Assembly: GCA_013336285.1 (NCBI GenBank)
Contig: JAAXTX010000008.1
Span: 1-38,191, forward strand
Direction: 5' to 3'
DNA: 38,191 nt
DNA from: Candidatus Moraniibacteriota bacterium
GTDB taxonomy: Bacteria; Patescibacteriota; Minisyncoccia; Moranbacterales; UBA1568
Shown here: in pieces, positions 1-38,086 of the stretch
Position numbering within the stretch: the first letter of the stretch is position 1
Layout of the letters: each line of letters starts with the position of its first letter
Notes under the pieces: generated by a model
What the model saw: the letters and a program-made list of their open reading frames with translations, nothing else
What the model was told of the DNA's origin: nothing
The model's database searches: none
Program-made: the position numbers and the translations under genes

Positions 1-266
1 TCCCCTGCCTGAGGGGAGCTCCCGTGGCCCTGCACGGGTGAGGGGTGGGAGCTGCTCCCTGTTCAATGTTATCTGTTCACTGTTCCCCGATTCCCCCGTC
101 GGGACCGCGGAAAGGAAGGCGTGCATGTCGCCTTTCCTTCCGCCGTCCCACCCAAAAAGGAGCGGTTTACTCCCCTCCGGACGGCAGAAATGTTTGAAAA
201 AATAGCTTTGTTAACGCCTGCCATTATGAGATTCGTCTCGTGTGAAGCGGGCAAAAAAAAATCGAT

Positions 267-438: not shown

Positions 439-478
439 GGGTCAGCGACGATTAATTTCCTTGCTGACCCAACTTTTT
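439..478 (+). terminator. rho-independent terminator candidate
   Basis: GGGTCAGC (439-446) pairs with GCTGACCC (463-470), followed by AACTTTTTG. Confidence 0.55.
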
Positions 479-599
479 GAGAACTTGATCATCCGATCGA
501 GGCCTCAAAGAAGTTTTCATAAATCGTAATCAGTAAACTAATAAATCATATGTAGTAACTAACACCACGTCCATTCTTCCTCCAACCATCTTGGCGGCG

Positions 600-1090
600 T
601 TTCGAGAGAAATAGCATGTGTTTTCTCCCGGACCGCCGCCCGGATATGGTGCGGTAAGACAGTTCAAAACCACAAAAGTCCGCGAGGACAAGGAGGCGAG
701 ATGTTTCAGGACATCTAAGGTAGGTCGTTGCCCAGCGACCTTAAATGAAGTCGGCAGGCGCGTACCCGCCTCAAACTGCTTAGGAGGTCTCAACACCGAA
801 ACCATGAGGTATGTCATGCGTGGAAAATGTTGGAGGAGCTATGTTTTCGGCATAGTGGCAAATGACACGGATTGGAAAACGGTCTTTTGTCTGTCGACTA
901 CCGGTTAGTCGAATGTTATAGACGGGGTGGCGTCCGTCCGCGGTCAGTCGCGACAGCTAAGAAAAACCTAGGTCTTGGGAATGCCGCCGATATTTTTGCT
1001 TCGGCAACGAAATCGAGGAGTGAATATCACTTCGAGTCAGCCTAAGACGACAACTTCAAAAACATTACTCCCTCAAGGAAGACAGAGGGA
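600..1090 (+). ncRNA. candidate structured RNA / long structured 5' leader of the PPDK-like gene
   Basis: About 490 nt without a convincing CDS, packed with short perfect hairpins: GTCC-GCGA-GGAC 678-689, AGATGT/ACATCT 699-716, AGGTCG/CGACCT 722-741, AGGCG/CGCCT 756-771, CTATG/CATAG 839-855, TCGACTA/TAGTCGA 894-912, GACG/CGTC 921-934, GCCGA/TCGGC 986-1005, AGTGA/TCACT 1019-1031, TCCCTC/GAGGGA 1069-1090. Confidence 0.4.
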
Positions 1091-1101: not shown

Positions 1102-3336
1102 ATGAAAAAAGAACTCATTTATCTCCTTGGGGAGAGCAATGGGAAAAACCCGCTTCCAACCATGGTTTTGGGAGGAAAGGGTAAGGCAATCGACGAAATG
1201 TCCCGTGACGGGATGCCGGTCCCACCGGCATTCACACTCCGGACCGGAGTCAGTCGTGCCTTCATGCAAGAAAAATGTCTGCCCCGACGCCTTGCATGGC
1301 ATCTGAAAAGGGGTATGTCGGAACTGGAAAAATCGACTGGCAGAAGATTTGGCGATCCAGCCAATCCTCTGTTGGTGTCGGTTCGATCCGGTGCTGCCGT
1401 ATCCATGCCCGGCATGATGGATACGATCCTGAATCTCGGCCTCAACCCGGAAACGACGATGGGGTTGGGCCGTATTGCCGGAGAAAGATTCGCTTGGGAC
1501 AGTTATCGGAGATTTCTTTCGCTTTTCGGCACTACGGTACTGGGAGTGAGTAAGGAGTCTTTTGAGAGCTTCCTTAGCACCTTGAAGAAAGATTTGGGGG
1601 TGGCAGACGACAGTCACCTGTCGGTAGACATACTGAAGCAAGTCTGCGATGTATTCCGCATCATAATAAAGCAGGCAAGCAAAGTTGAAATGCCAGATGA
1701 CCCGTGGCAACAACTCACGATGGCGCTACTCGCTGTCATGGAATCGTGGAAATCGGAAAGGGCCATGCTTTATCGGGAGAAATATGACATCCCGGAATGG
1801 CACGGAACCGCCGTAAACGTGCAGGCAATGGTATTCGGTAATCTCAATGACCGTTCCTGTACGGGAGTCGTCTTCAGCCGCAACGTCGCAACAGGAGAAA
1901 AAGGCCTCTACGGTGAATTTCTCGTCAATGCGCAGGGTGAAGATGTCGTATCCGGGGCCAGAACCCCGAGCCCGATTGCCGAAATGCAGCTATGGGATCG
2001 GGAATTGCACGATGAACTAGAGCGCTTGGTCATGAAACTTGAGGCCAAGTATCAGGACGTCGTGGATGTGGAGTTCACCGTAGAAAACGGAAAGCTCTAT
2101 ATCCTGCAGTCCCGGATTGCAAAAAGGACGCCCGAAGCTGCTGCGACCGTTGCCGTACACATGTTCTGGGACAAGACATGGGATCGCGAACGGTCGCTTG
2201 ATGCCGTGACACCCGAACAGGTATGGCAATTGCACACGCAATCGTTTGATGCTGATGCTCTAAAATCAGCTACGATCATTGCAAGGGGTATTCCAGCCTC
2301 GCCAGGCGCCATAGTGGGCACTGTTACCCTATCATCGCGATCGGCCGTTGAATTGGCGGCTCGCGGGAAAGTAGTGATTCTCGTAAGACCTGACACCTCT
2401 CCTGACGATCTGTCAGGTATGTTGGCAAGTGTCGGAGTCATCACGGGCACAGGCGGATCCACATCGCACGCTGCAGTCGTTTGTCGCGGTATGGGTAAGC
2501 CGGCCGTGGTCGGTTGCGATATCGATTCTCTCAAAGAAGGTGGCCTCGTCTCCATTGATGGCGCAACCGGAACCGTCTTTCTCGGAGAAGTAAAAAGAAA
2601 TGAAGCAAACAAAAAAAAGGAGGTAAACATCTTTCTCAGGTGGGTCGATCGGTTCCGTCGAATCAAGAGGAAGCCGAGAATCGGTTTCGAATACTATGGC
2701 AAGAGAGAGTCGTTTAACAGACTGTTAAATGACTTCTATCTATCCGAAGCTATAGCGGCAGAAACTGCTTCCACCGAAGCAAGTCAATTACGTGAAAAAA
2801 TCCACACAACAACAGCTGAACATATCGCGTGTTATCTCGCGATAGCTGTTGCCGGCGAATTACGGCATGCAAGAAGTATCACAAGGGAGATATCATCGTA
2901 CCTGAAAGAATTCGATATCTCGCTCGGAGGAGAGCGTCTGCCCGCACAAGGTAAAATCATCGCGATTCTGAAAAATGCGAGTGATCCCAAGAAAGGCATC
3001 CGGTTCTTCGAAGGCGCCGTAAAGGCTTTCAGGGAATGCGAATGGAAAGAAGGATTCGGTGGCAGTCAGTGGGCGCAGATCGCGGAAGCGCCGATCAATT
3101 ACCTTGCCGGTACAGTAAGTGATAGCGTGTTCGTAGATCACGCATTCGATCTACAGCACAACAACGGCTCGGTTTTTGGAAAGCACGACATGCTGTACGG
3201 AAGTCGCGACCTTCTTCAGAGCCAGCTAGAAGCAAAAAAGCTCGCGACCGGGAACGCGAGAGAATTGAGGAAGAAACTGAGCTGGATCTGTAATGAGTTC
3301 TCTCCCGAAGTCATCGCCATGCTCGAAAAAAATTAA
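1102..3336 (+). CDS. PPDK-like protein: nucleotide-binding and phosphohistidine domains, no PEP/pyruvate TIM barrel, unknown C-terminal module
   Basis: PPDK signatures SVRSGAAVSMPGMMDTILNLG, TAVNVQAMVFGN..GVVFSRNVATGEKGLYGEFLVNAQGEDVVSG and GTGGSTSHAAVVCRGMGKPAVVG; strong SD AAGGAGGTGA just before the ATG. Confidence 0.85.
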   Translation: MKKELIYLLGESNGKNPLPTMVLGGKGKAIDEMSRDGMPVPPAFTLRTGVSRAFMQEKCLPRRLAWHLKRGMSELEKSTGRRFGDPANPLLVSVRSGAAVSMPGMMDTILNLGLNPETTMGLGRIAGERFAWDSYRRFLSLFGTTVLGVSKESFESFLSTLKKDLGVADDSHLSVDILKQVCDVFRIIIKQASKVEMPDDPWQQLTMALLAVMESWKSERAMLYREKYDIPEWHGTAVNVQAMVFGNLNDRSCTGVVFSRNVATGEKGLYGEFLVNAQGEDVVSGARTPSPIAEMQLWDRELHDELERLVMKLEAKYQDVVDVEFTVENGKLYILQSRIAKRTPEAAATVAVHMFWDKTWDRERSLDAVTPEQVWQLHTQSFDADALKSATIIARGIPASPGAIVGTVTLSSRSAVELAARGKVVILVRPDTSPDDLSGMLASVGVITGTGGSTSHAAVVCRGMGKPAVVGCDIDSLKEGGLVSIDGATGTVFLGEVKRNEANKKKEVNIFLRWVDRFRRIKRKPRIGFEYYGKRESFNRLLNDFYLSEAIAAETASTEASQLREKIHTTTAEHIACYLAIAVAGELRHARSITREISSYLKEFDISLGGERLPAQGKIIAILKNASDPKKGIRFFEGAVKAFRECEWKEGFGGSQWAQIAEAPINYLAGTVSDSVFVDHAFDLQHNNGSVFGKHDMLYGSRDLLQSQLEAKKLATGNARELRKKLSWICNEFSPEVIAMLEKN

Positions 3337-3338
3337 AA

Positions 3339-3953
3339 ATGACAGTGAAAAAGAAACAAGCAAAAGGAGGGAGCGGGGGAGGCTTGGCTATGCCGAAGGC
3401 TCCACCTCTTCCGCCACATCCGGAACACCGAGGTGAACCGGTCCGGGTCGGTCCCTATACCATCCTCGCGGGTGGGATACGCGACCTCGTGGCCGAGGAT
3501 CTCGAAAAGGCGGACGTACTGATCCCGCTTCTCGACAGTCTGCCGAGGCTTGAGTTTGGCAGGCCGTATCAGATTCTGGCCGCGCCGCTCGCCGACTATG
3601 GCGGTGTGCCGAACAACTGGGAGCAGTTCCTGCGCGAGCAGGTAATCCCGCTCCTGGCCACCGAAAAAAAGGTGCTCGCGTTCTGCCACGGCTCTCACGG
3701 CAGAACCGGCTGCTTCCTCGCATCGCTCATCGCGATCCTGGAGACACCGGAAGAGACTCCTGACCCGATTGCCGCGGTGCGAAAGCGTCATTGCAAAAAG
3801 GCAGTAGAGTCGCAGGCGCAAGCGGAAGCAGTTTTTGCCCTCCGGGGCGAAAAACTCCCTCAGAAGTATTCGATGGAATTCACAAAAAAACCCGCTACTG
3901 TCTGGCCTTTGCCGCAAGACAACTGGTGGAACTTTCTTCCAACAGCTCACTGA
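3339..3953 (+). CDS. protein tyrosine / dual-specificity phosphatase-like protein (start may instead be 3390)
   Basis: CX5R-type motif FCHGSHGRTG; starts 2 nt after the stop of the PPDK-like gene. Confidence 0.65.
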   Translation: MTVKKKQAKGGSGGGLAMPKAPPLPPHPEHRGEPVRVGPYTILAGGIRDLVAEDLEKADVLIPLLDSLPRLEFGRPYQILAAPLADYGGVPNNWEQFLREQVIPLLATEKKVLAFCHGSHGRTGCFLASLIAILETPEETPDPIAAVRKRHCKKAVESQAQAEAVFALRGEKLPQKYSMEFTKKPATVWPLPQDNWWNFLPTAH

Positions 3954-3981
3954 GTACGCGGTGGGCAAAAAAACAAAAACC

Positions 3982-4338
3982 ATGAATAAATTCTTCATGG
4001 CCGGCACCGAAGGTACCGGCGAGTATGTCGTGATAGCCGTCACCGGCAAGGGCCGCGTCGGCTACCGCGTGCTCGAGGGCGCGGTCCGCGTCCGGGTTGA
4101 ACCGAAGAACCAGAAATGGGCCGTCCAGATGGCTCCGCTCTTCGGATATGACTGGAAGGTTCCGGACGGTCAGTTCCGGTTCTCAACCGTCGTGAGCGAC
4201 CCGGCCCCGGCAATCCGCCTCGGCCTTGAGGCCATCGGTGCGATTGTCAAACCGACGGTCCAGGTGAATGCCACCGCCCCTGATTGGGCCAAGGCGCTTC
4301 TCGCCTCAGCAGAGGTAGTGAATCAGGTCAAGGCATAA
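3982..4338 (+). CDS. hypothetical protein, 118 aa (MNKFFMAGTEGTGEYVVIAV...)
   Basis: Start chosen at 3982 to avoid overlap with the upstream gene; same strand and spacing as the preceding genes. Confidence 0.5.
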   Translation: MNKFFMAGTEGTGEYVVIAVTGKGRVGYRVLEGAVRVRVEPKNQKWAVQMAPLFGYDWKVPDGQFRFSTVVSDPAPAIRLGLEAIGAIVKPTVQVNATAPDWAKALLASAEVVNQVKA

Positions 4339-4622
4339 AGACCCTTTACACTCGCGTCAATGAACGCGTTCGCTGAAAACAATCCACAGCGGTAAATGAA
4401 CAGGTCGTCAGTCTCGTATCACGGGAATGTCCTGACGGAAACAAAGACAACACACGTGGGCCATATAGGGATTCATCCCTGGGAAGCAGAGCCTAAAAAT
4501 GAACAACGGTTTCAAAGAGAGCAAGCGTCATGTGGTATGGCCTTGCTCTTTCTTCCAAGCCCGAGCACGGTGGTGACGGTTTTGGAAGAAAATACTAAAC
4601 ATTAAATAATAGTAAGACTCCG

Positions 4623-4988
4623 ATGAGAAGAATCGTCGTCATGAACGAATCCCACAAACTTTTTCCTGAACAGAAAACTCTTCTTCAGGAAAAATTTGGC
4701 ACCTATGAGATCCTCTCGGTGCCGGAAGAAGGCTGGACACTCGAAGAAATGAGAGGTGTCGCCGACAGTATCGACCTATGGCAAGATCAGGTGCTCTTCG
4801 TATCACCGGTCCCATACCTCTTGGCTACCCTTAGTTTCAAGGCCGGCGAAATGTGCGGGCTTGTCGGACCCATTCCGGAAGATCGGCGCGGAGTGTACAT
4901 ATTCCACAACGACTTACGGGAGAAGAAGGAATTGCCGGGAGGAAGAATCGTATCCGTAACAGCAACGACTGGCTGGGTAACGGTCTAA
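4623..4988 (+). CDS. hypothetical protein, 121 aa
   Basis: Open frame with plausible protein composition; no family recognised. Confidence 0.5.
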   Translation: MRRIVVMNESHKLFPEQKTLLQEKFGTYEILSVPEEGWTLEEMRGVADSIDLWQDQVLFVSPVPYLLATLSFKAGEMCGLVGPIPEDRRGVYIFHNDLREKKELPGGRIVSVTATTGWVTV

Positions 4989-5263
4989 TCAAATACGCCA
5001 GTGGAGGGAAGAAAGAACGGTTATTTCTTCCCAAATATTCCCTCCCCTGGCACAGTTTTTCGAGTCCTTGGACCATTCGAGGATTCGAAGTGACTGTTTC
5101 CCTCTCCCGTCCCGCAGACGAGCCGATTCGCGATATATACGACCCCGTACAGGTCATTCGCCAATCCACTCTTCGTGATGTCGCCGTCTCCGAAAGATCT
5201 CTCTCCTTTCGGGAGCACTCCGACTCATCCCGCTCGTCCGCGGAACAAGGGATGGAATCAATG

Positions 5264-37304: not shown

Positions 37305-37388
37305 GCCCAGGTGGCGGAATTGGTATACGCGCTAGCTTGAGGTGCTAGTTCCCGCAAGGGATTGGAGGTTCGAGTCCTCTCTTGGGCA
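37305..37388 (+). tRNA. tRNA-Leu (GAG)
   Basis: GCCCAGG acceptor, anticodon loop TTGAGGT, long variable arm, T-loop TTCGAGT, 3' CTTGGGC-A; no encoded CCA. Confidence 0.95.
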
Positions 37389-37543
37389 CAACGGAACGGA
37401 GTGGAGTTGGGATGAAGAAACAAGCCAACGGTTTGGCTTGTGTGAGGACGAGAAGGCCGGAGCGAAGTGAGGCGGGGCTGGAAGCGATTCTTGCTTCGGG
37501 AATCGACTCTGGCCGAGTCCTCTCATGGGCACAGATAGATGTG

Positions 37544-37569
37544 AAAAGAACAGGCACCCTGTTCTTTTT
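37544..37569 (+). terminator. rho-independent terminator
   Basis: AAAAGAACAGG-CAC-CCTGTTCTTTTT. Confidence 0.85.
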
Positions 37570-37588
37570 GCTTGATAAAGGCAGAGTC

Positions 37589-37616
37589 TTGCTAATTTCT
37601 CACCATTTTGTACAAT
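37589..37616 (+). promoter_or_regulatory. promoter for tRNA-Val
   Basis: TTGCTA (37589-37594), 16 bp, TACAAT (37611-37616). Confidence 0.6.
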
Positions 37617-37630
37617 AGAAAAAGTCTTAT

Positions 37631-37704
37631 GCACGCTTAGCTCAGTTGGTTAGAGCACCTCGTTTACACCGAGGGGGTCCAAGGTTCGAGTCCTTGAGCG
37701 TGCA
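37631..37704 (+). tRNA. tRNA-Val (TAC)
   Basis: GCACGCT/AGCGTGC acceptor, anticodon loop TTTACAC between CCTCG/CGAGG, T-loop TTCGAGT. Confidence 0.96.
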
Positions 37705-37734
37705 CCGAAACCGTGTATAATGAAAGTCATGGTC

Positions 37735-37806
37735 GCCTGGGTAGCTCAGTGGTAGAGCAGAGGACTGAAAATCCTCGTGTCGACAGTTCGATTCTGTCCC
37801 CAGGCA
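37735..37806 (+). tRNA. tRNA-Phe (GAA)
   Basis: GCCTGGG/CCCAGGC acceptor, anticodon loop CTGAAAA between GAGGA/TCCTC. Confidence 0.96.
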
Positions 37807-37872
37807 CAGGAATATTGTGGATAAGTCGTGTATTGCGCCGGTTATCCACCGTTTCCGGAATCCATATAAGCC

Positions 37873-37945
37873 GGGACTGTAGCTCAGCGGTTAGAGCAGG
37901 CGGCTCATAACCGCTTGGTCGCTGGTTCGAATCCAGCCAGTCCCA
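37873..37945 (+). tRNA. tRNA-Met (CAT), or Ile2 if lysidine-modified
   Basis: GGGACTG/CAGTCCC acceptor, anticodon loop CTCATAA, T arm GCTGG-TTCGAAT-CCAGC. Confidence 0.92.
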
Positions 37946-38002
37946 CAGTCGGTGAAGATCGGTGAAAAGCGGGCCTGCCACGCCGAAGCGCGGAGCGCGA
38001 AG

Positions 38003-38074
38003 GCGGGTATCGTATAGCGGCTATTACGTGTCCTTGCCAAGGACAAAATACGGGTTCGACTCCCGTTACCCGCT
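38003..38074 (+). tRNA. tRNA-Gly (GCC)
   Basis: GCGGGTA/TACCCGC acceptor, anticodon loop TTGCCAA between TGTCC/GGACA. Confidence 0.94.
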
Positions 38075-38086
38075 CAGGAAAGCATA

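Follow-up and report, generated by a model that had tools for sequence, protein, structure and literature searches.

The window analysed here is a 38,191-nt stretch (JAAXTX010000008.1, forward strand) from a Candidatus Moraniibacteriota bacterium (genome G000; 16S gene absent from the assembly), and it begins at a contig end. Near its start, a hairpin-rich block lies upstream of a PPDK-like gene, which is followed by a PTP-like ORF and small cargo ORFs, and two boundary palindromes flank this arrangement (Table 1). In the PPDK-like protein, an unrelated C-terminal part replaces the PEP/pyruvate domain. At the window end, five tRNA genes (Leu, Val, Phe, Met, Gly) are clustered at 37305-38075.

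Table 1 Features of the window and of related loci. Coordinates refer to the window unless a locus (L) is named.
Feature	Position	Strand	Description
Long hairpin	101-150	+	GCATGT loop; near start of variable gene block; common to G001 and G003 (blastn, GCATG-loop scan)
Terminator-like hairpin	440-446/463-469	+	GGTCAGC...GCTGACC, then T5 tract at 474-478 (sequence, inverted repeat)
Boundary palindrome, type B	471-515	+	From alignment of eight sites
−10-like box	518-523	+	CATAAA, candidate promoter; TATAAA in G001, CATAAT in G003
Hairpin P1	588-611/622-645	+	GCAUGU in loop; 24-nt imperfect inverted repeat
Hairpin P2	678-689	+	GTCC-GCGA-GGAC (sequence), GCGA tetraloop; U-A pair in window, C-G in G001
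SD and mini-ORF	690-696 and 701-718	+	AAGGAGG, directly 3′ of P2; MFQDI-stop (MLQDI-stop in G001)
Hairpin P3	699-716	+	One arm contains the mini-ORF start, the other its last codons to the stop
Hairpin P4	722-741	+	GGTCG/CGACC
Variable local-hairpin chain	746-1090	+	Without homologue; includes the next two features
Second SD-led mini-ORF	832-855	+	GGAGGAGCT-ATG TTT TCG GCA TAG
Stem	894-912	+	TCGACTA/TAGTCGA (sequence)
Last hairpin	1069-1090	+	TCCCTC/GAGGGA, then SD AAGGAGGTGA at 1091-1100 and ATG at 1102
PPDK-like gene	1102-3336	+	N-terminal and phosphohistidine domains (Pfam); NCBIfam TIGR01828 positions 3-530 of 865
PTP-like ORF	3339-3953	+	Motif CHGSHGRTG by eye; no family match
Small cargo ORFs	3982-4338, 4623-4988	+	Cargo remainder spans 3339-4988
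Boundary palindrome, type A	5047-5096	+	At cargo end
Other palindromes	L044 1706-1765, 7887-7935		
Other palindromes	L045 3818-3768, 1947-1895, 1392-1337	−	
Other palindrome	L085 7869-7820	−	
Conserved ~0.7-0.8 kb region	L079 3740-4470		On contig C58 of G000
Conserved ~0.7-0.8 kb region	L044 280-970		
Conserved ~0.7-0.8 kb region	L045 9290-8400	−	

An earlier note had described positions 600-1090 as a block with at least ten perfect stems, and all the stems that it named were found in the sequence where it had placed them. Counting perfect, non-overlapping stems of at least 5 bp with loops of 3-12, we obtained 11 hairpins, against 3.4 ± 1.6 expected from dinucleotide shuffles, none of which (0/300) reached 11. 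It also comes out on top when 77 equally sized windows across the 38 kb are compared. The whole-block MFE, however, is ordinary (z −1.17); the folding energy is better than chance for 588-745 (z −2.6, and −4.8 for its homologue in G001) and near chance for 746-1090 (z −0.8), so that the block is a series of local hairpins rather than a single compact large fold. In the same comparison of 588-745 and 746-1090, the minus strand folds with equally good energy. In the MFE structure of 600-1090, which considers a single fold, the last hairpin stops 5′ of the SD, leaving the SD outside the folded stretch.

The leader stretch is present in a single copy in its own genome. A Candidatus Moranbacteria MAG of the same genus (G001, CAINXS010000056.1) matches the window at 463-745, and G003 matches it only at about 470-522. 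Since blastn between G000 and G001 returned no match at 150-460 or 746-1090, the conserved stretch 463-745 is, as judged from these alignments, sharply bounded; within it, 588-745 is 85% identical to G001 (column mean). The covariance model R1, run on overlapping sets of genomes (190 relatives, 132 from the order and an even draw of 387 from the class), recovered G000 and G001 only. A weak R1 match in G048 was rejected, being poorly aligned and inside a predicted permease-type gene, as were matches in G129 and G178 with weaker scores and poor alignments. DNA patterns found nothing in viral contigs, or two short matches without the palindrome, and distant blastn gave no match in phage records; in genome contigs they recovered G001 and three unrelated organisms, the latter taken as chance. 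In total, the leader is present at the same locus in two of the six genomes of the genus. The large ornate RNAs that the earlier note had likened to the block in size and complexity do not fit, nor is the block a giant new RNA class: the conserved structure spans about 160 nt (280 nt including the boundary element) in two genomes only, the 3′ two thirds are unaligned, and the MFE is ordinary. The best-supported description is a regulatory leader of narrow, lineage-specific distribution.

The conserved module at 588-745 consists of four hairpins (P1-P4). When 588-752 was folded alone, 36 of the 44 comparable pairs were kept in G001, compared with a mean of 29.8 under random placement of the substitutions (P 0.012). 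Covariation, which the earlier note had proposed as a check, is thin: the count of pairs with double changes between 588-752 and G001 (two) is not significant by itself (P 0.22), with two sequences only. Both sequences form every one of the 35 consensus pairs, whereas slid controls reach at most 49%; a shuffle control of the consensus pairs (142/500) is little informative because it rests on two sequences. One pair of P1 changes from U-G in the window to C-G in G001, and P3 has a U-G pair in both, which would suit RNA from the plus strand, the strand of the genes. A likeness of P2 to the PyrR-binding loop was dropped, as there is no Rfam match and the loop differs.

Inside the third hairpin lies an SD-led mini-ORF of five codons (ATG TTT CAG GAC ATC TAA in the window, ATG TTA CAG GAC ATC TGA in G001). 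Both versions end in a stop codon (TAA or TGA), and the distance from SD to AUG is the same as for the PPDK-like gene. The variable part contains a second SD-led module of the same shape, without homologue. These mini-ORFs are suggestive of a leader-peptide role but no proof of it; the first, known from two species and only five codons long, may be due to chance.

The boundary elements form a family of their own. Eight sites, distributed over three genomes of one Moranbacteria genus, are alignable and fall into types A and B; they share a layout in which a variable-loop hairpin comes first, then a T5 tract that forms part of the palindrome. Each palindrome has a terminator-like hairpin on its 5′ side, and the sites mark the ends of gene sets that differ. 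The hairpin at 440-478 was unlisted by the terminator scan because its loop exceeds the scan rule, and the same layout recurs at the other boundary sites. The palindrome arms are paired in 98% of cells with five pairs doubly changed, compared with at most 57% in slid controls, a lenient comparison as the structure was derived from the same eight sites. Reading 471-515 as a mere operator palindrome is weakened by kept G-U pairs, which suggest that a folded single strand may matter. Downstream of type B lies the −10-like box, and the window and G001 then have the leader; in the window, the element from the terminator-like hairpin to this box takes up 440-523. The internal type A copies (just after L045 1339 and 3770 on the minus strand and L044 7935 on the plus strand) are followed by a TTCTTTGAAAA-type sequence (GTTCTTTGAAAA), which we take to resemble the boxA antitermination signal; no GTTCTTTGAAAA follows the terminal copies (window 5096 and L085).

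Between these boundaries, three species carry three different cargos between the same flanks. In G001 (L044 2332-5801), the cargo encodes E2-like (by eye), JAB (weak PADLOC match), ThiF/E1 (Pfam) and ubiquitin-like (by eye) proteins, a probable bacterial ubiquitin-like conjugation operon as predicted from sequence, and G003 carries other genes again. The genes tsaE and its neighbours at the far cargo end are syntenic in G003. On the other side, contig C58 of G000 ends just 3′ of a conserved ~0.7-0.8 kb region without a long ORF, and C58 and C16 presumably join into one locus. This region, divergent from a TrmB-family-regulator-like gene (by eye), opens with TTGACA-17-TATACT, a strong promoter sequence of the sigma-70 type. 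G001 and G003 also have it upstream of their variable genes, and G012 and G050 show a recognisable version of its promoter part. Its copy in G001 has no relevant Rfam match.

Outside the tRNAs, nothing in the window matches Rfam at the gathering threshold; the earlier note had assigned no class. A permissive search (E up to 5) of positions 1-1400 likewise gave nothing relevant, nor did Rfam searches of the G001 locus, and neither Rfam nor ARAGORN returned a match to riboswitches, T-box, tmRNA or RNase P RNA. Published descriptions place GOLLD and ROOL in phages and prophages, close to tRNA islands (PMC12286853). As in GOLLD, ROOL and OLE, many hairpins extend here over several hundred nt, and the window carries tRNA genes as in the GOLLD/ROOL setting, though about 36 kb away. 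Unlike all three, the block has no Rfam covariance-model match and its conservation ends at ~745, after ~160 nt; unlike GOLLD and ROOL, it matches no phage record.

Further parallels are found among cis-acting 5′ leaders and integron sites. In the trp and erm attenuators, for example, a cis-acting 5′ leader carries a leader-peptide ORF, and the present element shares with this type a long untranslated leader, serial hairpins, a strong first-gene SD at its end and a short ORF that has its own SD and overlaps a hairpin. It departs from this type in that no alternative terminator/antiterminator pair is visible, no series of regulatory codons occurs in the mini-ORF, and the leader fronts unrelated operons. 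The boundary elements, in turn, recall the attC sites of integron gene cassettes, which have the cores RYYYAAC and GTTRRRY: both are folded imperfect palindromes, here beside a variable-loop hairpin where exchangeable gene sets end, with pairing kept in the folded strand and homology between copies ending at or within a few bases of the 3′ end. In contrast to attC, no GTTRRRY/RYYYAAC core was seen by eye in the eight aligned sites, and unlike integron cassettes, each unit holds several genes; we do not claim integron membership. No integron integrase was recognised among the few cargo proteins scanned, and the literature searched on these phyla offered nothing on point about either integrons or structured RNA.

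Taken as a whole, we read 516-1101 as a cis-acting 5′ leader that serves an accessory operon in a variable locus, a tentative assignment to which we give slightly less than an even chance. The riboregulatory leader suggested by the earlier note fits the lack of an Rfam match, the conserved structured 5′ module, the absence of a plus-strand terminator-like site between 745 and the SD, and the shared strand with the operon. The link with the PPDK-like gene that it had drawn is incidental, because the homologous leader fronts different, unrelated cargo in G001. We infer a promoter, transcription and an attenuation-type mechanism, in which transcription would start probably within the boundary element (471-523) or directly behind it; a scan for consensus promoters called nothing at 518-523. 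The RNA from 588-745 would then fold into its four hairpins with the five-codon ORF inside the third, and translation of this ORF, or a factor bound to the hairpins, would set read-on in cis through 746-1090, so that expression past the variable chain would reach the first gene's strong SD. In G003, the type B site reaches a gene within about 40 nt of its end, and the leader RNA would thus be dispensable there.

Other explanations have to be weighed against this leader. That the block is coding or decayed coding sequence (small genes such as 618-908 or 872-1045) with incidental hairpins is, in our estimate, very improbable. The hexamer score of the ORF at 618-908 is low (0.07), as are those of the others in the block, but low values are also seen for several cargo ORFs nearby, so composition alone cannot settle the coding status of the block ORFs and leaves such genes conceivable, as does a possible small coupled ORF ahead of the first gene in G001 (L044 2181-2342), owing to which the untranslated part may be shorter there. 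Against coding, the 618-908 frame is not kept in G001, where alignment gaps of 1, 7 and 2 nt break it within 588-745; the ORF has no Pfam match, and the hairpin excess is the window's highest. The earlier note's term "non-coding" is therefore likely correct but unproven, as the low hexamer score does not discriminate here, and the block is best called untranslated except for the mini-ORFs. Somewhat less remote, yet still improbable, is a relic of a recent shared ancestor in a stretch without selection. It would agree with the occurrence at the same locus in two of six genomes of the genus, but leaves unexplained why 150-460 and 746-1090 are unalignable while 588-745 is 85% identical, and why pairing is kept above expectation.

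We regard it as about equally improbable that 588-745 is a stand-alone, trans-acting small RNA that lies ahead of cargo by chance. Such an RNA would allow for the compact conserved part and for downstream genes that vary from species to species; yet the scan found no plus-strand terminator-like site at 745-1101 or in the G001 counterpart, and the strand is that of the operon in both species. A role at the DNA level, in which the inverted repeats serve recombination or gene-set exchange as a folded single strand or by protein binding and any RNA role is secondary, is unlikely but deserves somewhat more weight. The conserved stretch starts at the boundary palindrome, related and covarying palindromes flank exchangeable cargo, and P1 is itself a 24-nt imperfect inverted repeat. 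However, P2-P4 and the SD/mini-ORF are kept though a boundary has no need of them, the U-G pairs in P1 and P3 suit RNA, and other boundary copies lack such a module.

If the cis-acting leader is real, Patescibacteria with small genomes would swap accessory gene sets at this locus behind a common leader and boundary elements, with a truncated PPDK-like operon here and a probable ubiquitin-like conjugation operon in the sister species. We put forward, as a speculative and rather doubtful proposal, an undescribed cassette-type Moranbacteria locus whose multi-gene units are bounded by a terminator-like hairpin and a covarying palindrome and expressed via shared leader RNAs with GCAUGU loop and mini-ORF, which would place different accessory operons under one control. 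Palindromes and leader would serve as sequence handles to find such loci. In itself, the conserved RNA is narrow and only modestly interesting, and the boundary palindromes in their setting of exchangeable gene sets may be more novel.

The loop of P1 recurs in the long hairpin at 101-150, close to where the variable gene block starts. When the loci were scanned for GCATG, the five best-stemmed of 166 sites were P1 (window and G001) and the block-start hairpin (window, G001 and G003), which suggests, from a likeness noticed post hoc, that the two hairpins are one element used twice.
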